A stretch of 25,459 nucleotides of DNA from a virus. The notes under the pieces are model-generated. The model was not told where the DNA came from, searched no databases, and saw only the letters and a program-made list of their open reading frames with translations. The stretch lies in the IMG/VR virus record IMGVR_UViG_3300037492_000115, positions 1 through 25,459 of that record; one strand, 5' to 3'. The translations under genes and the position numbers were made by a program. This document shows positions 8,796 to 25,459 of the stretch, one piece after another; within the stretch, counting starts at the first letter, position 1; the number at the start of each line of letters is the position of its first letter.

Positions 8796-9863
8796 TTACT
8801 TACTAGTCTTGCTGGTGCTAGAAAGCCTGGCCAAAGCTTTGAGGTTGGCTTGGACACGTTTCACGCGAGATGCAATAGCTCGCGATTCTTCCATATCCTC
8901 GTCAAGGTCTTCTACACCCTCAAAGCCGTCATCTTCATCCATGTCGCCGTCAAAGTCAGCTTTAGCTTTCTTTTTCGGTTTAGGAGCAGGCTTTGCCGCA
9001 GGTTTCGGAGCCGGCTTCTTAGCTGCTGGCTTTTTGGCCGCAGGCTTCGGAGCCGCCTTCTTTGGCTTCTTGTGACGCTTGGAACCTGGATGATTCAACA
9101 AGTATTTAGCTTGTTTGTCCTTGGAGTAGTTGTCAAAGCCAGCATCTTCTTCGCCGTCTTCGTCATCTTCCTCTTCGTCATCTTCCTCTTCGTCATCTTC
9201 CTCGTCTTCCTCTTCGTCATCTTCCTCTTCGTCATCTTCCTCGTCATCAGCTTCCGACACTTCTGAGTTGTCATCACCTGGTTGGCCTTCGCCGTCTACA
9301 GAGGGGATGCTAGGGTCAAGGTTCTCCATGACGTCGTTGAAGCCTTCGTCAATGTCTTCGAGGTCAGCATCTTCTTCGTCGAGGTCGTCTGTGTCTAGCT
9401 CTTCGTCATCCTCGGCTTCGTCTTCACCGAAAGCTGCGGTTGATCCGCCGCCAAAGGGTCCGTTAACCGGACGAGAATTGCCAGCAGGGCCGTTACCAAC
9501 GGTCATGTCATCAGCAATATCGTCAAAAGAATCACCTTCATCGTCAGCAGCTTCGGATTCAGATTTCTTCTTGAACGGCGGAGCAGCACCAGGGAAGGGC
9601 AGCTTGCCTGCAGCGATTTGAGCTTTGCGGCGTTTGGCGGCCAGCGAAGCCATCAACTGGGCAGTAGTCTTCTTTTTCTTGGTCAATGAAGCCGTCAGCT
9701 CAACGTGAGCCTTGGCTTGGCTTCTCTCAAGCACGGCGATAGTCGGACCGAGGTCCTTCATAGCCAGCGCCTTATCGAAGCAAATCGCGGCCTTGTTTGT
9801 ATCACCTTGGCGACCAAAGGTCACCGCAGCAATAAGCAAATCAAGGGATTTTGAATATCGCAT
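8796..9863 (-). CDS. Charge-block, low-complexity phage protein (probable internal head or scaffold-type)
   Basis: This 355-aa protein has a helical, slightly basic N-terminus (residues 1-90). An Asp/Glu-dominated segment covers about 106-242, densest at 205-240 where it is almost pure D/E. A basic segment with repeated KPAAK/KPAPK units spans about 262-302, like histone or HU tails. A second acidic patch lies at 304-326, and a short helical C-terminus follows. The acidic core is encoded by a 15-nt tandem repeat. I do not recognise a family. It lies immediately after the major capsid gene, with GGAGA before the ATG. A DNA-associated internal head protein or a scaffold-like factor is plausible. 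The polyacidic part may bind the basic part or capsid proteins. Confidence 0.75.
   Translation of the reverse strand: MRYSKSLDLLIAAVTFGRQGDTNKAAICFDKALAMKDLGPTIAVLERSQAKAHVELTASLTKKKKTTAQLMASLAAKRRKAQIAAGKLPFPGAAPPFKKKSESEAADDEGDSFDDIADDMTVGNGPAGNSRPVNGPFGGGSTAAFGEDEAEDDEELDTDDLDEEDADLEDIDEGFNDVMENLDPSIPSVDGEGQPGDDNSEVSEADDEEDDEEEDDEEEDEEDDEEEDDEEEDDEDGEEDAGFDNYSKDKQAKYLLNHPGSKRHKKPKKAAPKPAAKKPAAKKPAPKPAAKPAPKPKKKAKADFDGDMDEDDGFEGVEDLDEDMEESRAIASRVKRVQANLKALARLSSTSKTSK
9158..9241 (-). repeat. In-frame 15-nt tandem repeat coding for acidic residues
   Basis: The plus strand shows five copies of CTTCGTCATCTTCCT: three in tandem at 9158-9202, a 9-nt partial unit at 9203-9211, then two at 9212-9241. 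On the coding strand they give Asp/Glu runs. Both the unit and the interruption are multiples of three, so copy-number change would keep the frame. Confidence 0.9.
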
Positions 9864-11724: not shown

Positions 11725-13338
11725 TTAAAAGAAGGAAGAGGAATTACCCAGAATGCGACGCAATTCCGGAGTCTTGAACGAACTGTCTTTCAACGAAGAC
11801 GTTACGACTTCGACGGGAGTAGCGGTAGCAAACTCTTCGCCTTCATCTTCTGTCTCATCGTCATCAACGTCATCGTCATCAACTGATTCGTCTTCATCGG
11901 CATCATCACCAGCGGTCACGGGCTTTTTCAAGTTCGCGGTCGGGGTGTACTTCACCAAATCAATCGTCTCAGCCAATGCGTTTAGAGCCACGACAGGCTT
12001 CTTGGCAAGTTCGCGCGCAACATCAATGACTTCCCGGAATTGGGCGACACTGTATTGTGCGAAAATCTTGTCAATGATCTTTTCAGGTTTGCGAATGTTT
12101 AGGCTCGCCAACTCTGCAATCAAGGCAGTCTTCAACGGATCATGTTTGTTGCGCCAGAAATTACCTGCGTAACCTGCGGCTGCAATATCCAGACTGTGTT
12201 GGAACTGTTCGGCATACGTGTCAGCACCTGCAGTGGCCGTCTTCCGTTGTTTCTCAGTAGCTGCATCGACTTTCGCCTGCACAACCTTGGAAACTTTGAC
12301 AGTGACCTTGCTGGGTTTGAACTTGTACGTTGCCAGAGCCTTCTTCAAGCCTTCTGTTTCGATGGTGTGCGCGACGCTCATACGGAACTGCTCAGTTTGC
12401 AGCATATCCTTGTAAGCACCTGCATCCGCTTCGGCCAGTGTGGCAATGATTTGGTCCTTGGCAGACAGCAACACCTTCTTGTCACCGTAGAAGAACGATA
12501 CGGATTCAATTGGGGTTTCGTCTTCGTCTTCGACGTCAACTAGGTCCATGTCCATCGTTTCATCTCCGTAGTCATTTTCAGGCATTTCATCTGCATCAGC
12601 TTTGACTGCACCCGCCTTTGTGACTTTGGGCTCCACGGCGCCTGGGTTCTGAGTGGTTGGCTCGATACCAGGGTTAGCAGGCTTGCCATCAACAAGGGCT
12701 GAGTCAGGGGCACCAGGGCCTCTATCTGCGCCAACGTCATCAGGCAATGTAGTCGTATTGGGTTTTACGCCAACTTGATCTTCATTGGTCGTAGTTGCGA
12801 CAGCATCATCAGTGTCTTCAATGTCGTCCTCAAGATCGAGGAGTTCCATATCGTCAACTTCTGGCGCATCGTCAGCAGCTTCTTCAGTGTCCTCATCGAA
12901 ATCGATGTCTTCACCGTCACCCTCATCGCTTCCATCGGCAGCTTTTTCAAGCATATCAGTACCACATGCAGAGCAGTGGATGTGTTTGCCTACACCTGCA
13001 AGGGCAGCATGAAACGCGTTAATCGTTCCGCAACCAGCGCAAGTCAGATACGAGAGTTCTTCGTCGGGGGCAATGCTCGCTTTCACTTCTCCCTTGACTT
13101 CTACATTTCCATCGCCGCAGACAACACAGAATGGCTGTGCGCCTTCGACTTTGGGAAACGCAAATTCTGCGGTGCATTTCTTGCAGGAGCATTGTACGAA
13201 ACTATGCTTTGCAATCTCTGCACTTACGTCCTTCGCATTTGGCAACGTAGCGTCCCGGGTAGCGAAAACAAACACACCACCAGTCTTACGAGCGATCTCG
13301 GCGAACCGAGAAGCTCTCTTAAGATTTGGTTTGTGCAT
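11725..13338 (-). CDS. Scaffold/prohead core-like protein with N-terminal zinc ribbons
   Basis: The frame is open from a TTG at 13407, but ATG at 13338 has GGAG 6-7 nt upstream and leaves room for a promoter, so I use it (537 aa). Residues about 45-130 carry CxCxxC/CxxC (C50, C52, C55, C71, C74) and a second CxxC/CxxC ribbon (C100, C103, C122, C125). A strongly acidic, Pro/Thr-rich, probably disordered region follows to about 290. A helical domain covers 300-460 (KPSKVTVKVSKVVQAKVDAA), and another acidic stretch precedes a short C-terminal helix (TPELRRILGNSS). Acidic, helical proteins directly before the capsid gene are commonly scaffolds or core proteins. The zinc ribbons are unusual for that role. 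No protease motif was seen. Confidence 0.6.
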   Translation of the reverse strand: MHKPNLKRASRFAEIARKTGGVFVFATRDATLPNAKDVSAEIAKHSFVQCSCKKCTAEFAFPKVEGAQPFCVVCGDGNVEVKGEVKASIAPDEELSYLTCAGCGTINAFHAALAGVGKHIHCSACGTDMLEKAADGSDEGDGEDIDFDEDTEEAADDAPEVDDMELLDLEDDIEDTDDAVATTTNEDQVGVKPNTTTLPDDVGADRGPGAPDSALVDGKPANPGIEPTTQNPGAVEPKVTKAGAVKADADEMPENDYGDETMDMDLVDVEDEDETPIESVSFFYGDKKVLLSAKDQIIATLAEADAGAYKDMLQTEQFRMSVAHTIETEGLKKALATYKFKPSKVTVKVSKVVQAKVDAATEKQRKTATAGADTYAEQFQHSLDIAAAGYAGNFWRNKHDPLKTALIAELASLNIRKPEKIIDKIFAQYSVAQFREVIDVARELAKKPVVALNALAETIDLVKYTPTANLKKPVTAGDDADEDESVDDDDVDDDETEDEGEEFATATPVEVVTSSLKDSSFKTPELRRILGNSSSFF

Positions 13339-13394
13339 GTATTCTCCACGTAGGGTTTTTGAACTTAAATCACTGTTAGGCTGGTCCAGTGATA

Positions 13395-13408
13395 TATTAA
13401 AATACAAT
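13395..13408 (-). promoter_or_regulatory. Candidate phage late promoter upstream of the head gene block
   Basis: The minus strand reads ATTGTATTTTAATA, followed by TATCACTGG. It matches 13 of 14 bases of the motif before the sheath gene and lies 56 nt before the ATG at 13338, just after the terminator at 13446-13476. It therefore sits exactly where transcription of the head and tail genes should restart. Confidence 0.5.
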
Positions 13409-13445
13409 GTGCAGCAAATCTTTGAAATGACGCAGGCAAAGGAAA

Positions 13446-13476
13446 GGCCGTTGCCCAGAATTACCAGGCAACGGCC
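13446..13476 (-). terminator. Rho-independent terminator between modification and structural blocks
   Basis: The inverted repeat GGCCGTTGCC ... GGCAACGGCC is a perfect 10-bp stem with an 11-nt loop. On the minus strand it is followed by TTTCCTTTGCC, and on the plus strand by GATTTTATTTC, so it could stop transcripts from either side. Because all genes here are on the minus strand, it most likely ends the operon running from about 19408 to 13515. Confidence 0.75.
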
Positions 13477-13514
13477 GATTTTATTTCTTTGAAATATTTT
13501 CTACTGTCGAATAG

Positions 13515-13943
13515 TTAGTAGATACCAACTGGATTGTCGTAGACACAGGCTCCACATTCTCCATCCTCAGAAACTTCTACTTCGATTGAACGATTACTGC
13601 AATCGTATTTCGAAGCAATTGCGCCAACTAATTCTGCGGCAATCATTTCACAAGATTTGTAATCCAACATGAGCATAGACTTGTCGTACAGGCCTGTAAC
13701 CCAATTCAAGAACATATGGAATTCGATTTCACGGTCATCGTGATGAACCTGGATGCCAACTTTGAAGTGGAAACTGTGACGGTGAGGATCTCTAAGATAC
13801 TTCACTTCATCAGGAGCCTTAGGGTAGCAGTGAATACCAGGTCGAGTAAACTTTACCCATATGGTTGTCTTTTGACTGCTGAGCCTACTAAGCCTAGGTG
13901 TAGAGATCACTAGAGTTTCTTTGTCTGTGTTAATGGTTGGCAT
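13515..13943 (-). CDS. PTPS/QueD-fold-like protein
   Basis: This 142-aa protein resembles 6-pyruvoyl-tetrahydropterin synthase / 6-carboxy-tetrahydropterin synthase in layout. GIHC (H38) and PHRHSFHFKV (H54, H56) correspond to the three zinc-binding histidines. REIEFHMFLNWV matches the segment before the active-site helix, CEMIAAELV the usual T/S-x-E-x-I-A helix, and IEVEVSEDGECGACVY the C-terminal strand and Glu. QueD converts dihydroneopterin triphosphate toward preQ0, which would suit a DpdA-containing locus. However, the catalytic Cys that normally sits four residues before HxH is not present (L50), so this may be a diverged enzyme or a binding protein. GGAG precedes the ATG. It is the last gene before the terminator. 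Confidence 0.45.
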   Translation of the reverse strand: MPTINTDKETLVISTPRLSRLSSQKTTIWVKFTRPGIHCYPKAPDEVKYLRDPHRHSFHFKVGIQVHHDDREIEFHMFLNWVTGLYDKSMLMLDYKSCEMIAAELVGAIASKYDCSNRSIEVEVSEDGECGACVYDNPVGIY

Positions 13944-13946
13944 GGT

Positions 13947-14315
13947 TTACGCTCCGTAATTGAGCCTATGGTGCTCTTTGGTGTTAGCACCTTTTATGCC
14001 TTTTGCTCTGTCCTTGGCGAGGGCTGGCGTAATAGGCACAAGCAAGATGCTAGGGAAGATTAATTTCTTTTCTTTTGGCTTCAACAGCCGTGGGATGCGG
14101 TTGAAAATTCCTCTGTAGTAGGTTGCGTCAACGATCTTAATGCGACAGCTGGACAACGTATCAGCTGAGTCATAAACCCAAGCTTCGTCAGGCAACCCAG
14201 CTTCTACCCAAGAGCGAACTGATGCGTAGAATCGTTCTGGTTTCTTTACTGGCCAGAAAATCAACCCACCAACAGTCTTTACAGCAGGTTTTGCTTTAAC
14301 AGGTGCGGTAGCCAT
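13947..14315 (-). CDS. Unknown 122-aa protein next to the DpdA-like gene
   Basis: The N-terminus is an Ala/Lys/Pro-rich tail (ATAPVKAKPAVK). A folded part follows with FYASVRSWVEAGLPDEAWVYD, DATYYRGIFNRIP and a basic C-terminus (KEHHRLNYGA). I do not recognise the family. It is separated from the DpdA-like gene by 4 nt and from the PTPS-like gene by 3 nt, so it belongs to the same transcription unit and may have a linked function. AGGT precedes the ATG. Confidence 0.7.
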   Translation of the reverse strand: MATAPVKAKPAVKTVGGLIFWPVKKPERFYASVRSWVEAGLPDEAWVYDSADTLSSCRIKIVDATYYRGIFNRIPRLLKPKEKKLIFPSILLVPITPALAKDRAKGIKGANTKEHHRLNYGA

Positions 14316-14319
14316 AGTG

Positions 14320-15627
14320 TTACCTGAACTTTCGTTTGTGAAACTTTTCGTACTTGGTAAGGATATCGTTGTACTTGTCCTTGCCTACGTTCGCTTCATC
14401 TATGTTCTCTTCTGGGATGATGTCTGAGAACAAGCTGTTGGTACTGCGAGCCGGTTTGATTCTCTTGAACTTGTCGCTGGCGATGATCTCGCGAGTATAG
14501 TTGACCATGTATTGAAACTTCGTCAGGTCTATCCGCAAGTTCATTACCTTCGATATCTCTGCCAGTGTAACTTCGTTCTTTATGAAGTGCCGGGCCAGGT
14601 CGATAATCAATTCTGTTTGTTTAGACCTTACCCAAAGGTTATGAGCTTCTAGAATTGCTGCCGCGTTAAGAATGCGGATGTCATCGACCGCCACGCAAAC
14701 AGGACACCCGCAAGGAATAGCCTGTTTGAAGACTTGATTCTTTGGAATGTCAACGACAGTGAAATCTGAACGATCAACCATACCAATCAGAGAACCCATT
14801 CTGTGGCTAACAGAGTCAGCGCCGATCTCTCTGACGTAACCTTCTGCTTCGATCAGCGCATACATGAACATCCAGAACTTTGAGGTTACACCCAGAACAT
14901 GGAAGTACCGCGTAGTCTTTCTATATCGGCTAATCACATACATCAAGTTTTCAATGTTGTTCAGGTAATGGTCAACGCCAGGTTCTGGCTTGATGTTCAA
15001 CCCAGCTATTGCCACTACCTCAGCCTTGCGATCGAGAACGTCCAAACGACGTTTCCGTTTTTCTATAGACGTCCCGTGGCTGATCAACGCAAGGTGAATG
15101 TGTGGGTCAAGCCTCTCAATCAAATACTCATCGTTAGCCCGTATCATTCTCGAAACAGGGTCGAAATACTCTTTCTCAAACTTTGATCTTACAGGCAAGT
15201 CAATTGGCATACCAATGTTAGCCAACCTATTGTACCGCTTAACCACATCATCAGGGTGGACAAAGTCAGCAGCACCAGTGAGCATTTGGAACCCACCACT
15301 ATCGATGATGGACTCTATGCCCTTGTCTTCGAATGTGCTCTTGACATAATCGCCATGGATTGGGTTTGCCAAGACCTTTGTAAGTCCACAGGCATGGACG
15401 AACAGAGCGTTGGAAATCGGTACAGCAATATCTGCAGTGTGCTTGATGTTAACGCCGTTGACTTGAGACCGCGAGACAAAGCTGACTGTCTTGTCGTGGG
15501 TGTACCACTGTTTGTACTTTGCGCCAAACTCTGTGGATTCTTTCTTGTTGTGTTCCCTAGTGACCAAGATTTGGGCGCTATTTTGGCTGTAACTTTCACA
15601 GCCTGCAGGGACATAATGCACACTCAT
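14320..15627 (-). CDS. dpdA: DpdA-like DNA transglycosylase (TGT fold)
   Basis: This 435-aa protein carries tRNA-guanine transglycosylase hallmarks. IDSGGFQMLTG (D109) is the base-binding/general-acid loop, and VLGVTSKF a barrel strand. IGADSVSHR has D271 at the nucleophile position, in the form seen in phage DpdA enzymes. A zinc site C306-x-C308-x2-C311 with H329 in the AHNLW segment is complete. DpdA exchanges guanine in DNA for a 7-deazaguanine such as preQ0 and protects phage DNA from restriction. The length and the GADS motif favour DpdA over bacterial TGT, which normally acts on tRNA. The start overlaps the glycosyltransferase stop by 4 nt, with AGAGG upstream. I see no FolE, QueE or QueC with full motifs in the window, so precursor supply is unclear. 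An RNA-acting TGT is the main alternative. Confidence 0.75.
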   Translation of the reverse strand: MSVHYVPAGCESYSQNSAQILVTREHNKKESTEFGAKYKQWYTHDKTVSFVSRSQVNGVNIKHTADIAVPISNALFVHACGLTKVLANPIHGDYVKSTFEDKGIESIIDSGGFQMLTGAADFVHPDDVVKRYNRLANIGMPIDLPVRSKFEKEYFDPVSRMIRANDEYLIERLDPHIHLALISHGTSIEKRKRRLDVLDRKAEVVAIAGLNIKPEPGVDHYLNNIENLMYVISRYRKTTRYFHVLGVTSKFWMFMYALIEAEGYVREIGADSVSHRMGSLIGMVDRSDFTVVDIPKNQVFKQAIPCGCPVCVAVDDIRILNAAAILEAHNLWVRSKQTELIIDLARHFIKNEVTLAEISKVMNLRIDLTKFQYMVNYTREIIASDKFKRIKPARSTNSLFSDIIPEENIDEANVGKDKYNDILTKYEKFHKRKFR

Positions 15628-16739
15628 AAGACTAACCTCTCTAGACTACGAGCAATGTTCTCTGCTCCGTTAGTGTCTACTTCATTTACAGTAGGCCAGT
15701 CAGAGGTATTGAACGTAGCCATGAGATCGGACGTTACGTCAAAGTCCCTAACCTTCTCATTATCAAACAAGAATTGCATGGGCAAGAACTCATCGTGAGA
15801 TAAGCCTTTACGGGCAACCACATGGCATTTGTGGATCAAAGCTTCTGCAAGACAATAACCGTAGTTTTCCTCAATACTATGAGTTACCATGATCGCTGCT
15901 TCTTCAAGCTCTTTGTGGTACTGATCTTTTGTCAAGCCTGCCTTGATAGTGATCACACCCTCAGCCTCAAGCTTACGGGCATACACCACGCTCTCAGTTC
16001 CTCGGAAGGTTGACCTGCCAGTGGTCACAACGAACTCCCAATCTGGATACCTTAGCTTAAGTATGGCAAACATCTCAAGGGTTTCGTTGGGCCGCTTTTC
16101 AGTATCGAACCTGTTGGTAAGTAAAACTTTTTTCTGTTTGCCTGCCAACAGATTGGTGTTATTGGCCCTTGGATAATCAGATAGGAACAGAGGGTTCTTA
16201 CTTACATACAAGTTGCTTTCCAAGTTCTTTGCCCCGTACGGACGCAGACGTTCTCTTATGACCTGTTGCTTGTGGTACTGGCTACCGACAAATACTAGAT
16301 CACTGCAGGCTATCCAACCAACCTCTGTATATTTTTGGTAATAGGCTGCCACGCTGAACGCGTCTTCTTTTGTGTATGACGCGGCGTGCAGGAACGAAGT
16401 TATGAACACCTTGACGTTATTCATTTGCGCCAACAGCCGTACGCTCTCAAGTCCCCAAAACTCTGTGTCGGAGAAAAAGAATACGCACCCATCTTTGATC
16501 TGCCGCTGATGAAACATCTTGCTGATCTTTTGTAGCTGAGTAAACTTGTAATGGGTTGTGCTGTTGATGTCCAAGAAGGTTCCGACCTTCACTTCATCTT
16601 CCAACGTCACACCGTCGATGACCGTCACATCGAAGCCGTGCTTGGTAAACAGAGGCGGTATATTCCTGTACCAGGACTCTGTGTACCGCTCAAACAACGG
16701 CTCAAGAGGGACTAGCACTAATTGTTTTTTGGTATTCAT
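15624..16739 (-). CDS. Glycosyltransferase, GT4-like (GT-B fold)
   Basis: This 371-aa protein reads as a GT-B glycosyltransferase. An N-terminal Rossmann-like half (KKQLVLVPLEPLFERY) is followed by a C-terminal domain that begins at KVLLTNRFDTEKRPNETLEM and continues with WEFVVTTGRS. The GT4-type EX7E motif lies in SIEENYGYCLAEAL (E291, E299), which contacts the sugar nucleotide. GT4 enzymes use UDP- or GDP-sugars and retain configuration. There is no signal peptide or membrane anchor, so it is cytoplasmic. Four-nt overlaps with the DpdA-like gene downstream and the 171-aa gene upstream argue that its product works with theirs. Modified DNA base, a small molecule or a cell-surface glycan are possible acceptors; the context favours the first. 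Confidence 0.75.
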   Translation of the reverse strand: MNTKKQLVLVPLEPLFERYTESWYRNIPPLFTKHGFDVTVIDGVTLEDEVKVGTFLDINSTTHYKFTQLQKISKMFHQRQIKDGCVFFFSDTEFWGLESVRLLAQMNNVKVFITSFLHAASYTKEDAFSVAAYYQKYTEVGWIACSDLVFVGSQYHKQQVIRERLRPYGAKNLESNLYVSKNPLFLSDYPRANNTNLLAGKQKKVLLTNRFDTEKRPNETLEMFAILKLRYPDWEFVVTTGRSTFRGTESVVYARKLEAEGVITIKAGLTKDQYHKELEEAAIMVTHSIEENYGYCLAEALIHKCHVVARKGLSHDEFLPMQFLFDNEKVRDFDVTSDLMATFNTSDWPTVNEVDTNGAENIARSLERLVL

Positions 16740-17251
16740 TTTTGTAACCCTGGCAGTAGGAACTTCTTATCAGTTGATACTTTTAACGTTATATCGTCAG
16801 CAAAGGCTTGTGGTTGCGTTAGCATCATGTTACCAACAGTAATACACCGCACTGTGTTACTACCGTCAAACGTAGTTCTGCTAAACTTTACTTGGTCTGT
16901 ATCGTACAAATTCCAGAAACTATCGTTGAAAAGCGAACCAGTGTCTGTTATAGTTAACATGATGGTTACATTTTTGGAGTAACTGTCTCTGTTATATATC
17001 TCAGTTCTCTCTAGTGTTACAGGTAGACCTAATTCGTACCACTTTTTTAGGCAGTCGGCATAAGGTTGTATGTCGTTGGCGTGGTCACTTACGTAGATTT
17101 GTCGAACCCGTTCAACACTTGCTACTGCGCTTTTCGGAGTCGACCTATCCTTTAGAGACTTATAGTTGAAAAATTCCATAGCCTCTTTGGCGTCCATAAA
17201 CAGAGTGTATAGGCCTGACAAACGACCTTCTACTTCAAATCCAAGTTTCAT
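16736..17251 (-). CDS. Unknown 171-aa protein between glycosyltransferase and deacetylase
   Basis: The protein starts KLGFEVEGRLSGLYTLFMDAKEA, then IYVSDHANDIQ and LGLPVTLERTEI, and ends in a beta-rich part (NVTIMLTITDTG, ITVGNMMLTQ). The middle region recalls the alternating strand-helix pattern of radical-SAM partial barrels such as QueE. It has no CxxxCxxC cluster, so it cannot be a radical-SAM enzyme as it stands, and I do not assign a family. GAGG lies before the ATG. The 4-nt overlap with the glycosyltransferase start and the 14-nt gap from the deacetylase place it firmly in the same pathway cassette. Confidence 0.7.
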   Translation of the reverse strand: MKLGFEVEGRLSGLYTLFMDAKEAMEFFNYKSLKDRSTPKSAVASVERVRQIYVSDHANDIQPYADCLKKWYELGLPVTLERTEIYNRDSYSKNVTIMLTITDTGSLFNDSFWNLYDTDQVKFSRTTFDGSNTVRCITVGNMMLTQPQAFADDITLKVSTDKKFLLPGLQK

Positions 17252-17265
17252 GATGTGTTCCTCTT

Positions 17266-17937
17266 TTAGATCTTAAAAATGCAACCGTTGATGTGATCAA
17301 ACCGTAGCTCACCAGATAGGCATACGCTAACCAATTTGTTGAACGCTTTGACTTGGCACTTGTTGAAGTCGTCCATGTTTTGTAAGACGATCGAATTGAT
17401 TTCTTCAACGTAGTTGGCTGGTGCGGTTATTGAGAAGAACCCGTAGCGTCTCCGGACGTAGCTGTGGATATCTGTCTCGTAGACGGCAGTAAACAGGTAA
17501 TACTTTGCATCGTACTCCCATAGCTTTGCTTGACTTGGGTAGAATGTGTCTAACAACACTCGCTTATCGTTACTAGCCTTCTCAGACAACGGTATACCCA
17601 TAACCATATCTACAGAGTAGAAGTGAGTAGCGAATTCTCTGAACAGCTGGTTGGTCATCTTGTGATCTATGTGCCAATCCTGACGTGCTGGTACGTAGAT
17701 CTTGTCGTACTTACCTCGGTAGATAAGCTCAGGAACCTGGGCACTAAACACAGCAGCACCAGTAAACCCAAAGTACTCTGCAAGGCGATGACCTTCTGTT
17801 AGTCGTTCCTCAGTTGTCTCGTAGAGCCATATGACATCCAAATCATTTTCTTTTGGACCATGCCTGTAATCTTCAAGAACTTGATAACAGCCAATAAGTT
17901 CGTCATCAACGTGCGGTGCAAGGATCAGTGTCTTCAT
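17266..17937 (-). CDS. PIG-L / LmbE family deacetylase
   Basis: This 223-aa protein has the family's zinc motif at the very N-terminus, APHVDDELIG (H9, D11, D12, E13). The second metal motif follows in DWHIDHKMT (H89, H92). Members remove the acetyl group from N-acetylglucosamine-containing substrates (GlcNAc-PI, GlcNAc-inositol in mycothiol, GlcNAc-malate in bacillithiol, antibiotic intermediates). The length suits the family. It starts inside the stop of the PAPS-reductase-type gene (4-nt overlap) and is followed by the unknown 171-aa gene and the glycosyltransferase. A GT4 enzyme and a PIG-L enzyme in one operon usually act in sequence: sugar addition, then deacetylation to a free amine. 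The substrate here is unknown. Confidence 0.8.
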   Translation of the reverse strand: MKTLILAPHVDDELIGCYQVLEDYRHGPKENDLDVIWLYETTEERLTEGHRLAEYFGFTGAAVFSAQVPELIYRGKYDKIYVPARQDWHIDHKMTNQLFREFATHFYSVDMVMGIPLSEKASNDKRVLLDTFYPSQAKLWEYDAKYYLFTAVYETDIHSYVRRRYGFFSITAPANYVEEINSIVLQNMDDFNKCQVKAFNKLVSVCLSGELRFDHINGCIFKI

Positions 17938-18521
17938 GCTGCATCCTTTGGAATGAGATATTCGTCGCTGTACTCAATGTCGTTCCCGAATATATACGCC
18001 CACACTTCTTCATCTGACCAGTCGTACATAGGAAACACAAAGTTTAGGCCAAACAACCCGTTGGTAACATACAGAGGCATCTTATCCCTTGACACAGATA
18101 CTCCACCTACAATGAAATCAGTGGAACGGCCATCTGCCCTATTGTACTCAGATGCCCTTGACCCATCGAACTGAGTTCGCAAATGTGCAGGCATGGCCGC
18201 ACCCTTAGGTACATACAGAATAGGATACTGCCTGCGGTACAGGAAGTCTTTTGTTAACGGATGAACATCCTCTGGTTTGTTTGTATGGAGCACTGACCAA
18301 GTCAGAGTAGTCTTACTCATCAAATGATGAACTGCTACAGAATCTTTTCCGCCACTGGTGCCAACGTACAGCCCACCAATAGGCAATATCTCGCTAGGTA
18401 GTGTTGCAAGGCGTTCTAAGGCTACGCGTTCAAGCATGTCGATCTTGAACGCGGCACACGATAGTTCGAACAGGCTAAGCTTTTGCGCCTTGACAGTAGC
18501 TTCTTGTCGTGGTGTTATCAT
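17934..18521 (-). CDS. PAPS-reductase-family ATP pyrophosphatase
   Basis: This 195-aa protein has the PP-loop YVGTSGGKDSVAVHH (SGGKDS at 56-61) and the family's late motif PMYDWSDEEVWAYI (164-177), typical of PAPS reductases, CysD and DndC relatives. These proteins bind ATP and activate sulfate, carboxylate or amide groups. At this length it lacks the extra cysteine domains of DndC, and no CxxC pair or catalytic C-terminal Cys motif of true PAPS reductase is visible. Small phage members of this family are common but mostly uncharacterised. It overlaps both neighbours by 4 nt, so it is produced with the P-loop protein and the deacetylase. Confidence 0.7.
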   Translation of the reverse strand: MITPRQEATVKAQKLSLFELSCAAFKIDMLERVALERLATLPSEILPIGGLYVGTSGGKDSVAVHHLMSKTTLTWSVLHTNKPEDVHPLTKDFLYRRQYPILYVPKGAAMPAHLRTQFDGSRASEYNRADGRSTDFIVGGVSVSRDKMPLYVTNGLFGLNFVFPMYDWSDEEVWAYIFGNDIEYSDEYLIPKDAA

Positions 18522-19408
18522 TGTGCGTCCTCATGTGTCAATGCAGTGTCAGGTCCAGTAGGCATATACTTTGCAGCAACAAAGGGGACCCTATCCCATG
18601 GCACAGGCGGGGCAAACATGAGGTCAATCTTCAGCTGATCGCCAAACAAAAGCTTTGCGAAGCTCCTGATATTTGTGCCGTTAATTTCCAAAAACGCTAG
18701 GCTGTTGGGCTTGCCAACATAGTTGTACCAAACGTCTTGATCAGATGTGCTGCTATTCCTCTCCTTAACTATCAAGGTTATCTTGAAAGTGTCGGCAAGG
18801 AGTTGCCACTTCTCGTACTCAGCAAACACATCGTTCTTTACAGATATACGCAGCAAACCCAGAATCGTCTTGAAGATTTCTGGGCGATCGACTGTAATCA
18901 CGTTGGGGTAGTTGCCTGTGCCGATAAGTTGCATGAGCGTAGCATGAGTCCGCATACGGAATTCATCTGGTGGACGCTTGCCGTCTTCTTGATATGCCAA
19001 AGGCGACAGGTAAAAGATTCGAGTGTAGGTTTTGGCCCAAGCGTTGACAGCAAACCCCAACTCCTTTATCATTTGGCTATCGGGGTGGTCAGTAAGGGCG
19101 ATCGCATAAAGGTCCAGAACAGAGCGATCAGTGATGACAACATCAGCATCACCTTTGAGCTCTGCTTGGACCTCTGCGTGGATGAGATTTGTGATCATGC
19201 CGTAGTGGGCACGTGGGTCGACAGGGAAGTGATCGTCCTTCCAAGTGATCTTTCGGTCTTGAGAAGATACAAGCTCAGCTAGGACGTGGTGATCACGTTT
19301 AAGTCTTGAGCATACTTCCATAGCCATAGTAGTCTTGCCGCTGGAATTGGTTCCAGTAAAGGCAATCTTCTTATGGGCCGATTTAGGATTCGGGTCCATC
19401 TGTTTCAT
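18518..19408 (-). CDS. P-loop kinase-like protein (AAA_28/NadR type)
   Basis: This 296-aa protein has a Walker A loop in FTGTNSSGKTT (19-27) and a DR motif in VVITDRSVLDLY (D94, R95). The order fits thymidylate-kinase/NadR-type small-molecule kinases. The kinase domain spans about residues 12-195. The remaining ~100 residues, ending PTGPDTALTHEDAQ, are of unknown kind. Similar kinases occur in phages that hypermodify bases, where phosphorylation activates a hydroxymethyl group, but I cannot tell the substrate. AAGGAACAGT precedes the ATG. This is the first gene after the 65-nt gap at 19409-19473. Confidence 0.65.
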   Translation of the reverse strand: MKQMDPNPKSAHKKIAFTGTNSSGKTTMAMEVCSRLKRDHHVLAELVSSQDRKITWKDDHFPVDPRAHYGMITNLIHAEVQAELKGDADVVITDRSVLDLYAIALTDHPDSQMIKELGFAVNAWAKTYTRIFYLSPLAYQEDGKRPPDEFRMRTHATLMQLIGTGNYPNVITVDRPEIFKTILGLLRISVKNDVFAEYEKWQLLADTFKITLIVKERNSSTSDQDVWYNYVGKPNSLAFLEINGTNIRSFAKLLFGDQLKIDLMFAPPVPWDRVPFVAAKYMPTGPDTALTHEDAQ

Positions 19409-19473
19409 ACTGTTCCTTAAAATTGTTCATGTTCGAACACTTCTAATTTACAGTATGGTGTAGTGTGGTTTGA
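19409..19473 (-). promoter_or_regulatory. Intergenic gap with a weak promoter-like motif
   Basis: This is the only notable gap in the long operon. On the minus strand it contains ACTGTAAATTAGAA (19454-19441), which matches 10 of 14 bases of the structural-gene motif, 32 nt before the ATG of the kinase-like gene. No hairpin terminator is seen. It may mark a promoter for the dpdA cassette; the match is too loose for more. Confidence 0.25.
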
Positions 19474-20370
19474 TCACACTCGATCTGAATTGTAGTAGGC
19501 AAACACATCAGCAATAGCATCTCCGATCTGTTTTGCACCAGGTAAAGGCGGATCTATAAACCTGCGTATTGCCAGCACATCGGGTAAAGTTATGGCCATC
19601 TCTAGAGGAGAACTTCCAGCAACCTTTTCTGTTGGAATATCTATGTTTAGTTTATCTGCCATCATTGCAATAAATTGCACCTGCGTAAGAGGAGTGTTAT
19701 TACCATAGTTGAACGTATAGCTCGCTCCCTTGGCATAATTACCTTCTGTGATCAACATGTCAATGCACTTCACTATGTAGTCAACAGGAGTCCATGCCCT
19801 GTACATCTCACTAAAGAGAGGCACAGGTACACCTAGGCGTAAGCAATCCAAGATGATGTAGGGAAACATATTCTCCCTTTGGTAAGATCCAAGGGCATTA
19901 AACAGACGAAGGTTTACTATCGAAGGACCTGAACCTTCTGTCTGGTCTGCTGCAAGATTTAACCAATGTTCGGCAGCAAGCTTAGACACAGAATAGTTAG
20001 ACATAGGGTGAGGAACTTGCTCCTCGCTAAACGGTGGCGGGATATTGCCGTACACAGAACTAGAAGATGCGTTTATCATCAAAGGTACTTTGTGCTCTAC
20101 GCAGGATTCATATACATTCATTGCCAACCCTACGTTGATGCGTAGGAGCTCTTTGCAACTTAGTCCGCTACGAACAGAGGTCTCACTAGCCAAGTGAACA
20201 ACGGCGTCAACGCCAGCAAAGTCGTATATCTGAGTTTCACCCAACAGCATATCTTGACAGTGAGTTATATGGTGCGTTGTTATACGTTTATCAAACGATA
20301 AGGCGTCAGGCCAGTGATCGAGACAGTTACGACCAATGAAACCTGACGCCCCAGTAATTGCAATCTTCAT
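19474..20370 (-). CDS. NAD-dependent epimerase/dehydratase (extended SDR)
   Basis: This 298-aa protein has the extended SDR layout: dinucleotide-binding GASGFIG (G7-G13), DAVVHLASETSVRSG, the catalytic Ser segment ASSSSVYG (102-108) and YxxxK in YSVSKLAAEHW (Y126, K130). The C-terminal substrate part includes TPVDYIVKCIDML. Such enzymes interconvert nucleotide sugars, e.g. UDP-Glc/UDP-Gal or UDP-GlcNAc/UDP-GalNAc 4-epimerases, or dehydrate them. It is slightly shorter than GalE. It could supply the donor for the glycosyltransferase at 15624-16739, although a 65-nt gap separates it from that cassette. The start overlaps the previous gene by 4 nt. Confidence 0.8.
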   Translation of the reverse strand: MKIAITGASGFIGRNCLDHWPDALSFDKRITTHHITHCQDMLLGETQIYDFAGVDAVVHLASETSVRSGLSCKELLRINVGLAMNVYESCVEHKVPLMINASSSSVYGNIPPPFSEEQVPHPMSNYSVSKLAAEHWLNLAADQTEGSGPSIVNLRLFNALGSYQRENMFPYIILDCLRLGVPVPLFSEMYRAWTPVDYIVKCIDMLITEGNYAKGASYTFNYGNNTPLTQVQFIAMMADKLNIDIPTEKVAGSSPLEMAITLPDVLAIRRFIDPPLPGAKQIGDAIADVFAYYNSDRV

Positions 20371-20642
20371 GGCTGATCCTTTAGCTCTGTGTACGTTTCT
20401 CTAAATTTTTGGTTCGACATTACACATACAATATCCCCTTCAGTGACTATCCAGTCCCCAGCAAAAACTAATGTGCTTCCGATTTGTGTACCTTTATCGT
20501 GAACATGAGGGCTACTACCTGGACCACCTAACATGATGCAACCGCATAAAGCCTTTGGATTAGCACCTTGTACAAGGGGATGGTCTCCATCCTTGAACCA
20601 CTGAGTAGCTTCAACAATAGAAGGCTTGGTTGTGTACTTCAT
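20367..20642 (-). CDS. Small conserved-type phage protein (91 aa)
   Basis: The N-terminus KYTTKPSIVEATQWFKDGDHP and the later segment LVFAGDWIVTEGDIVCVMSNQKF match a small protein type that I recall from many tailed phages (a 'KP...EA.QW...DG' start and 'GDWIV...G...VM....F...Y' end). A function is not established as far as I know. The middle HVHDKG could bind a metal, but that is a guess. Overlaps of 4 nt on both sides place it within the operon. Confidence 0.75.
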   Translation of the reverse strand: MKYTTKPSIVEATQWFKDGDHPLVQGANPKALCGCIMLGGPGSSPHVHDKGTQIGSTLVFAGDWIVTEGDIVCVMSNQKFRETYTELKDQP

Positions 20643-20857
20643 TTCTTTTTCTTGGCCTTCGGCTCTTCTGGGGCTATCACTTCGATGGCGCGCTCCAAAT
20701 CCTTCAATGCTGATTTACGAAGGTTCGATTTAACGTCCTTGACATCGTCGCTATCTTCGAGTTGAGCTTCGACTGTGACCTCTGCGCCGTACGTTCCGTA
20801 GTTGCCATCACTGAGCTTGCGTACCAACGTCAAGGAGAGTTTTGTTATTTTTGCCAT
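20639..20857 (-). CDS. Unknown small protein (72 aa)
   Basis: The protein has a beta-like N-terminal half (ITKLSLTLVRKL, YGAEVTVEAQLE), an acidic turn with DSDDVKD, a helix (RKSALKDLERAIEVI) and a Lys-rich tail (PKAKKKK). I do not recognise it. The single-domain shape and basic tail suggest a small nucleic-acid-associated factor, which is only a guess. The start has a weak GAAAGA upstream, and the stop overlaps the next gene by 4 nt. Confidence 0.65.
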   Translation of the reverse strand: MAKITKLSLTLVRKLSDGNYGTYGAEVTVEAQLEDSDDVKDVKSNLRKSALKDLERAIEVIAPEEPKAKKKK

Positions 20858-20869
20858 TGTTGTCTTTCG

Positions 20870-21175
20870 TTATGCCCAACGACCGCGTTTGGGCCCCAGG
20901 GCTATTTTTGAGAGTTGCTTGTGTTCTTGTTGCTTGAACCTAACTTTGTCAGCCTTCAAATCTTCTTGCAAGGTCGTTAATAGTGGCGTAATGTCAGGAA
21001 TTAACCCAGACTTATAACCGTCAGGAGACCTGATGATACGCATACCCCTAAAGGTACCAACCTCCATCTCACAGTGTTTGCTTGTGAATATAGAGTTGAG
21101 TTGTTCTATCTTGGTCCGCATTTCTTCTTCTGTAGTTTCAAGGGAACCGAAGAAGCTAGGAATAGTTTTATCCAT
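20870..21175 (-). CDS. Unknown small protein (101 aa)
   Basis: The protein appears mainly helical: TTEEEMRTKIEQLNSIF near the N-terminus and LTTLQEDLKADKVRFKQQEHK near the C-terminus, with a basic end (LGPKRGRWA). I do not recognise the family. Its first codons overlap the end of the methyltransferase gene by 8 nt. A 12-nt gap separates it from the 72-aa gene. Confidence 0.6.
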   Translation of the reverse strand: MDKTIPSFFGSLETTEEEMRTKIEQLNSIFTSKHCEMEVGTFRGMRIIRSPDGYKSGLIPDITPLLTTLQEDLKADKVRFKQQEHKQLSKIALGPKRGRWA

Positions 21176-21776
21176 TTGGTATCACCAGTCTAGTTCCGCC
21201 ACCACCCCATCCTACGTAGCGCAAATCAATCACAGTGTGGTTGGGAAGGTTATACAGATCCAAGAAGTTGTTAAGGTACTCAACGTGGTTGTCTGGGAAC
21301 AAATCACCATCAGTGTAGTTGTCGAGGACAAATATGCACCTGGGACTAGTCATTGGCAAAATTGTTTTTAGAAAACGAGTCCTGTTGAAGGGGTGATACG
21401 TGTCAATAGATACTAAGTCAAACGGATACGTGAATTTGTTAAGGTGGTTAACAACCTCGTCCTCTGTTTTGAAGAAGTCAAGCTCGACATTATCAAGTTC
21501 CTGATCTATAATTGCCTGCTTAACCGCTGGCTCCCACTGTCCTGTTTTATCGATCTCTACACCGTAGACTTTCCGTGTACGTGCAGCATAAAATACTGTT
21601 GAGCCACCAACACCGAGGTCTAATGCAATCTCTGTTCCGGTTAGTAGCCTGTTAAGCTCAAGAGTAGCCTCAGGAGCAATCCATGGAAGACCATAGTGCA
21701 AAGATTTCTGTTGCGGGTTTATATGGTTGTAGTCAACAGGAAACGCAAAGCCTTGTTGAGGTAAAAAAGTTTTCAT
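21168..21776 (-). CDS. Class I SAM-dependent methyltransferase-like protein
   Basis: In this 202-aa protein motif I is ALDLGVGGSTVFYA (residues 51-64), followed by the acidic end of strand 2 in VYGVEID (70-76). A later FDLVSIDTYHPF corresponds to the motif IV region. This is the Rossmann-like SAM fold. The substrate is not readable; sugar, small-molecule and DNA methyltransferases share the fold, and no NPPY/DPPY DNA-methylase motif is present. FVLDNYTDGD resembles motifs of methyltransferases acting on small metabolites or sugars. AAGGA lies before the ATG. It may decorate a product of the neighbouring sugar genes. Confidence 0.6.
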   Translation of the reverse strand: MKTFLPQQGFAFPVDYNHINPQQKSLHYGLPWIAPEATLELNRLLTGTEIALDLGVGGSTVFYAARTRKVYGVEIDKTGQWEPAVKQAIIDQELDNVELDFFKTEDEVVNHLNKFTYPFDLVSIDTYHPFNRTRFLKTILPMTSPRCIFVLDNYTDGDLFPDNHVEYLNNFLDLYNLPNHTVIDLRYVGWGGGGTRLVIPNG

Positions 21777-21788
21777 TTAGTCCTTGTG

Positions 21789-22013
21789 TTAACCAATTGT
21801 AACCTCAGTGTAGGTCGTCTCACCCAGTTGGGTGCTAGTATCAAATTTGCGTCCGCACGTAGAACATTTAACCGTACGGAAGGTAGTGTTGCGGTCAGGG
21901 TTGTGGTTGACGCCAGTAAGGTCTATCTGGGGAGGGTAGTACACTGCCGTACTTACACTAGGACACTCTAACTGGAGACGGCACTCAGTTGGTTTGTCAC
22001 AAGGTAGTGCCAT
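21789..22013 (-). CDS. Small Cys-rich, zinc-ribbon-like protein (74 aa)
   Basis: I use ATG at 22013, which has AAGGAG about 10 nt upstream, over a GTG at 22058 that would add 15 residues. Cysteines are C5, C11, C17 and a CxxC pair C50/C53 in VKCSTCGRKFD, so one zinc site is plausible. The CxxCGRKF pattern is typical of small zinc ribbons. I do not know the role. Confidence 0.6.
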   Translation of the reverse strand: MALPCDKPTECRLQLECPSVSTAVYYPPQIDLTGVNHNPDRNTTFRTVKCSTCGRKFDTSTQLGETTYTEVTIG

Positions 22014-22095
22014 AGTCCCCGAACTCCTTCCAATAATGACAAATATATCTGATCTCACTTACAAGCGGTTTAAGCGTAAAAGGTGGTGTGCTCAT
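21997..22095 (-). CDS. Possible 32-aa small protein
   Basis: An ATG at 22095 overlaps the TGA of the winged-helix gene (ATGA) and opens 32 codons (MSTPPFTLKPLVSEIRYICH..., ending YGTTL). The residue choice looks protein-like, and the start is in the same coupled position as most genes here. The end overlaps the start of the Cys-rich gene by 17 nt. Its short length makes it uncertain. Confidence 0.35.
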   Translation of the reverse strand: MSTPPFTLKPLVSEIRYICHYWKEFGDYGTTL

Positions 22096-22526
22096 AGTTG
22101 GCTTTCTGTGTTGCTATCTGTATTTACAGTGTATGCGGTTAGGCCAAAAGGATTGTTGATCCTATTTATTTCAGAGCGTTCCTTGTACGCCTTGAGGTTA
22201 ATGCGAAGTTTGTGCTTTTCGTAGTGGCGCCGCTTCTGCTCTTGGCGCGATATGGGAGGTGGCTCAGGAACATCATCACAAATATCTTTAGTTCCTAAAC
22301 CATAAATTGGGCTGCGACGCCCTTTAATTTCTTTGAGCTCCCAATCAACCTTGTATATGGGTTTTCCTTCACTACGCATGACCCTCAAGTGGTGTGAAAC
22401 CATTTGGAACTGAACGTCTAAGTACCTTGCTATCTCTTTGATAGTCATTGGACCAACATACTCAAAAGCCTTTAGGATAGCCGCATAGTAAGGACTGGGC
22501 GGAACACTAGACCTTCTTTTGGTCAT
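22092..22526 (-). CDS. Winged-helix DNA-binding protein
   Basis: In this 144-aa protein residues about 12-75 form a winged helix: a first helix YYAAILKAFEYVG, then MTIKEIARYLDV and QMVSHHLRVMRSEGK as the helix-turn-helix, with a wing at KVDWELKEIKG. The pattern is close to ArsR/MarR-like domains. The C-terminal part is basic (SRQEQKRRHYEKHKLR) and probably DNA-binding or disordered. It is the only visible regulator-like gene in the window and could control the accessory block. Its 4-nt overlap with the GNAT gene shows joint expression. Confidence 0.7.
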   Translation of the reverse strand: MTKRRSSVPPSPYYAAILKAFEYVGPMTIKEIARYLDVQFQMVSHHLRVMRSEGKPIYKVDWELKEIKGRRSPIYGLGTKDICDDVPEPPPISRQEQKRRHYEKHKLRINLKAYKERSEINRINNPFGLTAYTVNTDSNTESQL

Positions 22527-22981
22527 AAGTTCTTCTCTACTTTATAAAAAGTTGCAAATGCTCCAATTCTAGTCATAGCCGTTAGCATATCTTTGTTCTT
22601 GATGTGTATGTTACCTGTTATCTTTTTGCACCCAAAAGCCTTAACACGTTGTTCTAGAGCAGTGAACATATGTTGGAAAATTCTGGCTCCCCTATGGTCA
22701 GGAGTAACGTGAACAAATTGGACTAATACTGTTTTATAAGTATCTGCGTAAACTACAAACATTAACACACCAACTACAGTCTTGTTTACTATCGCATAAA
22801 TAACTTCACTCTTGTTTGTAGTAAGAAGAAGGGGTTGAGTGTTGTTCGCTTCAATTAACGCGGAGTAGGCAGATAGAAAAAGGGCAATTGCAGGGCACCC
22901 GTTTATGCTGCTAGCATATCTTACTTGCATATCCTGAGCACCGCCTGTCCCCTTTACGGTAGATAAGAGAGTGTCACTCAT
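22523..22981 (-). CDS. GNAT-family acetyltransferase
   Basis: This 152-aa protein has the GNAT core in order: KSEVIYAIVNKTVVGVLMF (beta 2-3), VQFVHVTPDHRGARIFQHMF (beta 4 and the acetyl-CoA pyrophosphate loop, residues 87-106), then helix LEQRVKAFGCKKI and a beta-5 region with a following MTRIGA segment. Members acetylate amines with acetyl-CoA. The acceptor is unknown. It lies beside a second possible acyltransferase and an ATP pyrophosphatase. Confidence 0.65.
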   Translation of the reverse strand: MSDTLLSTVKGTGGAQDMQVRYASSINGCPAIALFLSAYSALIEANNTQPLLLTTNKSEVIYAIVNKTVVGVLMFVVYADTYKTVLVQFVHVTPDHRGARIFQHMFTALEQRVKAFGCKKITGNIHIKNKDMLTAMTRIGAFATFYKVEKNL

Positions 22982-23534
22982 AGTTAAATGTCCTTAGGTT
23001 ATCCGGTAGGCTATAGAGTTTTACTAGTACAGGGCGGGCGTACGTGATACCAAGTTGTATATCATTCCAGTACATACCGAAAGAGGACTTCTTATTTGGT
23101 GGTATAACTTCTTCTGTTGCAACAGTGTATCGTCTGAACATCTCAGATCGTCTGCTTAGCCAGTTCTCCCAACGGGCATCAACCCCTGCAAAGAGCTTAA
23201 CGTATCCGTGATAATATTTTATACTCTCCGCATATTTGAAAGCTTCATCAAAGGCAAATGCAAGACAGTTGAAAGGCGCAAACGGTTGCTTGACCACATA
23301 CGCCAGTTTCCAGTAGCGGGCATTAGCAGAGAAGTGGATGAAGATGCAAGCGTTCAAGACGTTGTTGTCATCATAGACACCAAAGACCTTGTGCAGCTTC
23401 TCTTCATCGTTGAAATAAAAGTTCTCTAATGCAAGTAGGGAAGGTCTTGGGTATCCATTGTTTTTTATATTGGCTGCTGCTACGAGTCTGTCGTACTCGA
23501 AATAATTAGCGCCAGATAGTTCTTTACATTTCAT
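22974..23534 (-). CDS. Possible acyltransferase (GNAT-like fold)
   Basis: This 186-aa protein shows a topology reminiscent of acyl-CoA N-acyltransferases: KVFGVYDDNNVLNACIFIHF as central strands, YWKLAYVVKQPF next, then a long helix FAFDEAFKYAESIKYYHG. The canonical Q/RxxGxG/A loop is absent, so it may be a diverged member or a different protein. The C-terminal part is Arg/Lys-rich. The stop overlaps the 152-aa GNAT gene by 8 nt, suggesting the two work together. Confidence 0.35.
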   Translation of the reverse strand: MKCKELSGANYFEYDRLVAAANIKNNGYPRPSLLALENFYFNDEEKLHKVFGVYDDNNVLNACIFIHFSANARYWKLAYVVKQPFAPFNCLAFAFDEAFKYAESIKYYHGYVKLFAGVDARWENWLSRRSEMFRRYTVATEEVIPPNKKSSFGMYWNDIQLGITYARPVLVKLYSLPDNLRTFNYE

Positions 23535-24477: not shown

Positions 24478-24485
24478 TTTTGATC

Positions 24486-25151: not shown

Positions 25152-25152
25152 G

Positions 25153-25459
25153 TTATACAGCCCTGTGAACTTTGGGTGTTATGCTATTAGCAAGGTTAAG
25201 GTTTATGTTCAACAGAGAGATTGTCTCCTCCATGTCAAACCCTCGGGAATTTTTTGTCTGAATAAATAGGTCAGCTATTTGATGCTGACTCTTATCTCCC
25301 ATGCTCCCATCAAAACTGAAATCAGATGCTATTGCTGTACCAATAAAATTTTCAAGCATGAAAGGACAGTTTGCCATGAACAAAGTAAAATAGATTTGGT
25401 AGTAGGCAATCGCAGATGCACTAAGGTTAATAGTCCAACGAAAATCAATCTTGTAATGC
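25153..25459 (-). CDS. Partial phage protein of unknown function, C-terminal end only
   Basis: The frame ending at TAA 25153-25155 stays open without interruption to the right window edge. The TTG/ATG codons at 25383/25377 are therefore probably internal and the gene begins outside the window. The visible ~101 residues include INLSASAIAYYQIYFTLFMANCP, then MLENFIGTAIAS and a Lys/Gln-rich stretch, ending NLANSITPKVHRAV. The long hydrophobic-aromatic stretch may be a buried core rather than a membrane segment. I cannot assign a family. Confidence 0.55.
   Translation of the reverse strand, partial: HYKIDFRWTINLSASAIAYYQIYFTLFMANCPFMLENFIGTAIASDFSFDGSMGDKSQHQIADLFIQTKNSRGFDMEETISLLNINLNLANSITPKVHRAV

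Follow-up and report, generated by a model that had tools for sequence, protein, structure and literature searches.

The 25,459-base virus record IMGVR_UViG_3300037492_000115 (the window) encodes virion proteins, including the tail sheath and tube and the major head protein, and alongside them a same-strand run of small enzymes. We analyzed a cassette of eight open reading frames (ORFs) at positions 13515 to 19408, all on the minus strand, which includes a DpdA-like base transglycosylase. In order of transcription, the ORFs encode an AAA_28/thymidylate-kinase-like P-loop protein (18518 to 19408), a PP-loop ATP pyrophosphatase of the PAPS-reductase-like type (17934 to 18521), a PIG-L/LmbE-type zinc N-deacetylase (17266 to 17937), the conserved protein h171 (16736 to 17251), a GT4-type (GT-B) glycosyltransferase (GT; 15624 to 16739), the DpdA-like transglycosylase of the TGT superfamily (14320 to 15627), the small protein h122 (13947 to 14315), and a QueD-like T-fold protein, h142 (13515 to 13943). 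No function has been assigned to h171 or h122. Four of the seven junctions are 4-nucleotide overlaps (kinase/PAPS, with the two genes translationally coupled, PAPS/PIG-L, h171/GT, and GT/DpdA), and the other three are gaps of 14 (PIG-L/h171), 4 (DpdA/h122), and 3 (h122/h142) nucleotides. The ORFs, their coordinates, and the mostly 4-nucleotide overlaps are as given in a first-pass annotation of this DNA, which proposed a new DNA hypermodification pathway from five enzymes. All five are present, but h142 had been overlooked, as had the conserved h171 and h122.

The annotation had described the transglycosylase as a TGT/DpdA-type protein with complete motifs, and all of the named residues were found. 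When seven phage homologues are aligned, D109, the SGGFQ stretch at 110 to 114, D271, C306, C308, C311, and H329 do not vary, and both the catalytic and the zinc motifs are complete. A profile of the family matched the archaeosine TGT 1iq8 among solved structures (E 2.3e-11), with the DSGGFQ and CxCxxC...H stretches aligned. The AlphaFold (AF2) model of the protein, built from only four input sequences, is of moderate confidence (pLDDT 74), and in a Foldseek search TGTs occupied ranks 1 to 5 among solved structures (E 6.7e-8 to 2.3e-6). Searches of Pfam and NCBIfam returned no TGT match at E of 1 or less, and PHROGs returned a weak match to queuine TGT (E 7.8e-4).

The GT scored 30.7 bits against the Pfam family PF00534 (Glycos_transf_1; E 2.8e-7), above the cut-off of 26.4, and matched phrog_2170 (E 7e-10). 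Its EX7E motif, which had been noted before, is formed by E291 and E299, the first of which is replaced by D in phage BUCT-ZZ01. By tblastn the GT is 50.5% identical to its counterpart in Xanthomonas phage X1. The deacetylase carries the PHVDDE (PHxDDE) motif and, around the HIDH of the first annotation, DWHIDH (DxHxxH); both are conserved in its relatives. In X1 the PIG-L protein is annotated from an internal start, and PHVDDE appears on reading upstream. The PP-loop ATPase was likewise borne out, by PF01507 (PAPS_reduct, E 1.6e-8) and an SGGKDS motif, and it is 48% identical to the X1 protein. Against DndC of the Dnd phosphorothioation system it reached 13.7 bits, where the equivalog cut-off is 290.4. 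The kinase-like protein is also real (AAA_28, PF13521, E 1.6e-9; phrog_2107, E 1e-10). In our locus scans, however, its homologues turned up only in loci L133, L139, and L153, all from a sister record of the window described below. We therefore rejected it as a core part, and its place in the pathway set did not stand. Homologues of h171 were found in X1 and at L135 to L138, L140, L142, L154, L172, and L174. The h122 protein has no family match in Pfam or PHROGs, and its homologue lies beside DpdA at L134, L140, L172, and L174. At L140 (8602 to 9981), a second glycosyltransferase with a weak GT4-conflict match below the cut-off precedes the PAPS-like gene, and L154/L176 has one at the same place.

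The overlooked ORF, h142, belongs to phrog_17812 (E 2e-26). Its AF2 model (pLDDT 83.8) is a T-fold, and its best matches among solved structures are QueD and 6-pyruvoyltetrahydropterin synthases (Foldseek E 1.7e-5). Compared with E. coli QueD (4ntk), the model gave a VIA Z of 12.6 and a root mean square deviation of 2.5 over 110 aligned residues. At the sequence level the resemblance is faint. Pfam PTPS (PF01242) was matched below its cut-off (E 0.11), the h142 profile gave only a chance hit against Protein Data Bank sequences, and hhalign with phage QueDs aligned the C-terminal half alone (58%, E 1e-4). Across 46 sequences, H38, H54, H56, S97, C98, E99, E126, and D127 are invariant. In QueD the catalytic Cys sits just before HxH. 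In h142 no Cys occurs at positions 44 to 53 ahead of the HRH at 54 to 56, and Cys 39 is common but not invariant. A separate QueD is encoded in the sister record G001, in phages ACP17 and BUCT-ZZ01, and at L140, L172, and L174, so we rejected h142 as an ordinary QueD. Because of the T-fold, the missing Cys, and the separate QueD, we regard h142 as a paralogue of QueD whose active site has changed but which could still bind a deazaguanine. A further link comes from six contigs (L138/L141, which are one contig, L142, L143, L155, L156, and L157) in which PIG-L and h142 form a single ORF. L155, L156, and L157 look near-identical, and the fusions therefore represent about four sequence groups. Such a fusion ties the deacetylase directly and physically to the QueD-like protein.

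The sister record, G001, is an uncultivated sequence of 222,078 bases that covers the same region. Each of the eight proteins of its cassette shares 89.9 to 100% identity with the window counterpart. The GT and the major head protein are the same in the two records (both 100%), and divergence is greater in the kinase-like protein (89.9%) and in DpdA (95.2%). Elsewhere G001 encodes FolE, QueE, and QueD, the joint product of which is 7-carboxy-7-deazaguanine (CDG), and a hidden Markov model search of G001 gave no match to QueC (PF06508). This implies that the phage can make CDG but seems unable to convert it to preQ0. Near the intact QueD, at 188.68 to 188.99 kb (L018), G001 has a second QueD of the type found in Achromobacter phage Motura, which looks truncated (66 amino acids after the ATG). 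A small Cys-containing protein follows the transglycosylase in five GT-less large phages (L003 to L007) and is homologous among them. Its homologue in G001 lies at 160056 to 160466, about 48 kb from DpdA, which suggests that DpdA moved into the cassette.

The absence of QueC extends to other phages with the GT. None of 18 GT-positive records had a QueC match (PF06508 over its cut-off), whereas all six GT-less phages with relatives of the window DpdA did. QueC was also present in all five GT-less DpdA2 phages examined, by annotation (four as "QueC-like" and one as "queuosine biosynthesis protein") and by a match to a QueC-based search. Absence of the GT in these 11 GT-less cases means absence from the GT tblastn list and from the locus stretches examined. 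A 19th record, G011 (L099), has h142 and no GT within its 20-kb stretch, and its borderline QueC match passes only with neighboring frames summed. Counted in this way, QueC occurs in 1 of these 19 records and in 11 of 11 GT-less ones (Fisher 2.2e-7, with shared ancestry ignored and with the 19 records a convenience choice that includes fragments). PAC2 (a PA5oct-like phage), ACP17, BUCT-ZZ01, Phosso, and X1 all bear QueE and have no QueC over the Pfam cut-off, X1 having a match below it. ACP17 has been described as a distant relative of Stenotrophomonas phages such as Moby (PMC9025141). Moby has the order uvsX, FolE, QueC, DpdA2, QueE, and helicase, whereas ACP17 has uvsX, FolE, DpdA2, GT, h142, QueE, and helicase, with further genes on either side of FolE in both. 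As judged from gene content, GT and h142 thus appear to take QueC's place, with the swap at one locus position in Moby and ACP17. In Moby, the stretch from FolE to QueC includes a gene annotated as inositol-3-phosphate synthase (L189, 3454 to 4704).

A survey for the neighborhood of DpdA, GT4, and PIG-L genes had been proposed, and we found that it recurs. Megablast of window positions 13000 to 25459 against phages gave no match. In X1 the row is FolE, PAPS-like, PIG-L, h171, GT, a DpdA2-type transglycosylase, h142, and QueE. In three contigs of 190, 192, and 136 kb (L140, L172, and L174), QueD, h142, PAPS, PIG-L, h171, GT, DpdA, h122, QueE, and FolE are all packed into about 10 kb, and the outer genes vary somewhat in order. 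Given the identity of 89.9 to 100% in G001 and the repeated PAPS/PIG-L/h171/GT order in other phages, the cassette does not appear to be a chance grouping. A scan with PIG-L returned six viral loci, one of them G001; the GT was present in all six, the PAPS-like gene in five, and h142 in four, once fused. Over all scans, PIG-L was found in 15 distinct contigs together with the GT (15), h142 (13), the PAPS-like gene (11), h171 (10), and a TGT (8), counts that are biased toward the cassette since most scans were seeded from cassette genes (PAPS, GT, and DpdA alignments, among others). The PAPS scan also returned nine loci without any other cassette gene.

Searching 50,697 phage records with the GT by tblastn gave 16 matches, each covering at least 80% of the protein. 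These represent about five lineages (11 close PA5oct-like records, in which PA5oct itself is counted twice, 2 of ACP17, and X1, Phosso, and BUCT-ZZ01). All 16 have h142 and a transglycosylase, which is DpdA2 type in 4 and PAC2 type in 12, and in each of the five named GT phages examined, QueE lies nearby. Overall, the GT and h142 are found with transglycosylases belonging to three subfamilies. In G001 the GT profile matched only the cassette gene. A scan of 2.9 million viral contigs with h142 gave at least 587 confirmed relatives. Among the best 80 loci, many of which are short or near-duplicate, a TGT was found in 68, the GT in 63, both in 60, FolE in 56, QueE in 36, and QueD in 33. At least one of FolE, QueD, and QueE was present in 60 and QueC in none. 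A phosphoribosyltransferase stands beside the QueE/FolE genes in 24 of these loci and also in PAC2 and BUCT-ZZ01. When the count is restricted to loci of 20 kb or more (24 of them), the GT is present in 20, a TGT in 21, FolE in 23, QueE in 16, and QueD in 15. Taking one locus per 80%-identity h142 cluster (39 clusters) gave a PAC2-type TGT in 30, DpdA2 in 1, the GT in 28, FolE in 29, QueE in 24, and QueD in 17. With the same profiles, control loci (11 GT-less DpdA and 9 PAPS-only) had neither the GT (0/20) nor h142 (0/20). Bacterial and archaeal genome contigs held 14 h142 loci, 10 of which have the GT and the same 10 a TGT. Four Magnetospirillum genome contigs (L158, L162, L165, and L170) carry the GT, h142, a PAC2-type TGT, and QueD together, with an integrase-like ORF nearby in L162. 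These could be a mobile island or a bacterial DNA modification system.

The PAC2-type protein appears to be a diverged TGT. Its family aligned to that of the window DpdA in hhalign with a probability of 98.2% (E 3.7e-14), and DSGG is present in 63 of 63 long ORFs. It is this alignment and the DSGG motif that the assignment rests on; the zinc motif is present in 0 of 63, the family profile matched no solved structure, and a Pfam search with PAC2's copy returned nothing.

Taken together, we believe it probable, by roughly two chances to one, that the cassette decorates the base in a phage pathway for 7-deazaguanine DNA hypermodification. This pathway would branch at CDG and add a sugar, which in the window variant would also be N-deacetylated. 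In the model that we propose, FolE, QueD, and QueE would make CDG, with no preQ0 step. The DpdA-like transglycosylase would swap guanine in phage DNA for CDG or for the product of h142, which might act on the 7-substituent or hand over the base. The GT4 enzyme would then attach a sugar, possibly from a GlcNAc-type donor, and in this variant PIG-L would strip the N-acetyl group to leave an amino sugar. Like QueC, the PP-loop ATPase may activate a carboxylate so that another amide bond can form, and the phosphoribosyltransferase might salvage the guanine freed by base exchange. The observation in the first-pass annotation was confirmed, and its core interpretation appears strengthened by independent genomes, with corrections. 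On gene content, h142 appears to be the core component and the core partner, PIG-L seems to be a variant add-on, and the kinase-like gene does not recur. For the broader claim, we see about an even chance that this is a widespread undescribed branch in which CDG is diverted, the base is inserted by any of three transglycosylase subfamilies, and a sugar is added via h142 and GT4, with a subgroup (including the window phage and X1) deacetylating it to a bulky cationic base.

Several observations weigh against this model. The FolE, QueE, and QueD genes of G001 lie about 72 to 75 kb from the cassette, and all three fall outside the window record, itself a fragment. The window PIG-L protein scores 24.2 bits against PF02585 (E 5e-5), under the gathering cut-off of 28.2. 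That family misses most cassette PIG-L proteins, G001's included, and it scored above the cut-off in 2 of the 19 records, the gene responsible in one of these not being part of the cassette. PAC2 gave no PIG-L match. In G012 (the contig of L084, with GT and h142), a clear PIG-L (E 7e-12, over the cut-off) is found at 65.8 to 66.2 kb, about 54 kb from GT/h142. PIG-L can thus exist outside the cassette in such phages, and this one is perhaps a deacetylase acting in trans or perhaps unrelated. No TGT was found within the stretches examined at L135 to L137, L143, and L155 to L157. No GT was detected with h142 in 6 of 22 named records and in 17 of the best 80 loci, some of them partial, and L164, L171, and L188 have h142 without any other gene sought. 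As some phages have h142 without a detected GT, h142 probably acts before the GT. Lastly, the PAPS-like gene, h171, and the cassette PIG-L occur in 0 of the best 80 h142 loci.

We weighed four other explanations of the same genes. In one, the enzymes act on tRNA, where a CDG-derived base would be inserted and then glycosylated by the GT, as QTMAN does with queuosine. The best solved matches of the TGT superfamily are tRNA enzymes, and the window enzyme retains the zinc site. However, the GT loci employ several TGT subfamilies, the DpdA2 type included. Moreover, phage DpdA is described as required for base insertion in phage DNA (PMC6884629). Among isolates, the best relative of the window DpdA is the Motura transglycosylase, which is described as acting on DNA (PMC7824862). 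We regard the tRNA explanation as unlikely. That there is no nucleic acid product at all, and that free CDG is glycosylated or consumed to starve or poison host deazaguanine-protein conjugation (Cap9 of CBASS, QatC), seems very unlikely to us. Host immunity does employ deazaguanine chemistry, according to two reports (PMC13329287; PMC13279940), and GT-bearing phages appear to halt at CDG. A transglycosylase would nevertheless be needless for a small-molecule role, and one accompanies the GT in 60 of the 63 GT-positive loci among the best 80 and in all 16 named records.

The first-pass annotation had itself raised the prospect that the GT and deacetylase act on a small thiol or a glycan of the surface; they would then adjoin DpdA by chance. 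A GT4 enzyme and a PIG-L enzyme catalyze the first two steps of bacillithiol and mycothiol synthesis. Yet PIG-L lies beside this GT in all six PIG-L-scan loci, shares one ORF with the QueD-like protein in six contigs, and, like the GT, has no match at E of 1 or less to the bshA/bshB or mshA/mshB NCBIfam models. With QueE near the GT in five phages and a TGT in 16 of 16, the placement of both enzymes in a 7-deazaguanine pathway is favored over this role. We rejected the latter on the gene context, the fusions, and the missing bsh/msh family match, and we consider it extremely improbable. The cassette could also be a relic or partly active, with the base still inserted and sugar transfer or deacetylation lost. 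The distance of the precursor genes in G001 and its seemingly truncated second QueD would fit such decay. Against it, none of the catalytic motifs that we checked is broken, and both records keep the cassette ORFs open, at 89.9 to 100% identity. We give decay little credence. The preferred reading remains glycosylation of a CDG-derived base in phage DNA.

Compared with known systems, the proposed pathway is partly familiar. In Hutinet 2019 (PMC6884629), phages with DpdA and DpdA2 contain dG+, dADG, dPreQ0, and dPreQ1, and phage Bipper is a case in which QueC alone is missing. The jumbo-phage survey PMC7824862, in the parts accessible, mentions Motura and PA5oct as phages that make deazaguanine and incorporate it, and ties glycosyltransferases to surface polysaccharides. 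The phage Dpd pathway (dPreQ0/dADG/dG+) shares FolE, QueD, QueE, and a TGT-superfamily transglycosylase with ours. It has QueC, whereas here there is no recognizable QueC but a GT4 enzyme, a QueD-like paralogue, PIG-L, the PP-loop protein, and h171. The Motura cluster likewise has a same-family DpdA (23% identity), FolE, QueD, and QueE but adds QueC and an asparagine-synthetase-like gene, and the Motura record is absent from the tblastn matches of the GT, h142, and PIG-L.

Other comparisons concern the decoration. The dCDG/dDG phages, reportedly the subject of Cui 2023, use CDG as well and encode a predicted CDG decarboxylase, DpdL, but are not known to have a glycosyltransferase or deacetylase. 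It is conceivable that h142 is DpdL itself or is related to it. BshA/BshB and MshA/MshB are the same pair of enzyme classes, transferring GlcNAc and then deacetylating it, but the context of this cassette is deazaguanine synthesis. QTMAN, a eukaryotic enzyme, is of GT4 type and glycosylates a 7-deazaguanine derivative, the queuosine in tRNA. Unlike the enzyme proposed here, it acts on the cyclopentenediol of queuosine; none of that moiety's genes turned up here, though no search for them was made. The alpha- and beta-glucosyltransferases of T4 also give a phage DNA base a sugar, but the base is hydroxymethylcytosine. The annotation knew of no described system with exactly this set, and we found none in the parts of the openly licensed literature that we searched and read. 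Nor did those parts contain a report of a GT, PIG-L, or T-fold protein in a DpdA pathway. One listing of papers showed no occurrence of DpdL, DpdM, or DpdN, and in the papers of another the letters DPDL mean other things.

Elsewhere in the window, a nucleotide-sugar epimerase (PF01370, E 1e-25) is encoded upstream of the cassette at 19474 to 20370 and might supply the sugar donor. A Methyltransf_24-like protein lies further upstream (21168 to 21776), and the gene just after that of the major head protein (8796 to 9863) encodes a protein with long Asp/Glu runs. Near the right end, positions 22092 to 24501 hold PP-loop, GNAT, and HTH genes. Upstream of their counterparts in G001, at 97.07 to 100.97 kb (L014, 2067 to 5974), lie genes for a GNAT protein, a pair of radical SAM proteins (one 524 amino acids long), and a PP-loop-like protein. 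These radical SAM, GNAT, and PP-loop genes are possibly a second modification operon.

Phages are known to carry 7-deazaguanine DNA bases with small 7-substituents, and a sugar or amino sugar on one would, if our model is right, be a new class of hypermodification. It would give a role to phrog_17812, a family without an assigned function that has at least 587 viral relatives, and it would explain the QueE-bearing phages in which no QueC exceeds the cut-off (PAC2, ACP17, BUCT-ZZ01, Phosso, and X1). Such a base could matter for the evasion of restriction, Cas, and BREX, for sequencing artefacts, and for base-specific labeling of DNA. Since isolated phages with the gene set exist, the hypothesis is directly testable. 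The presence of this set in many phages may mean that it is an unrecognized way of disguising virus DNA.

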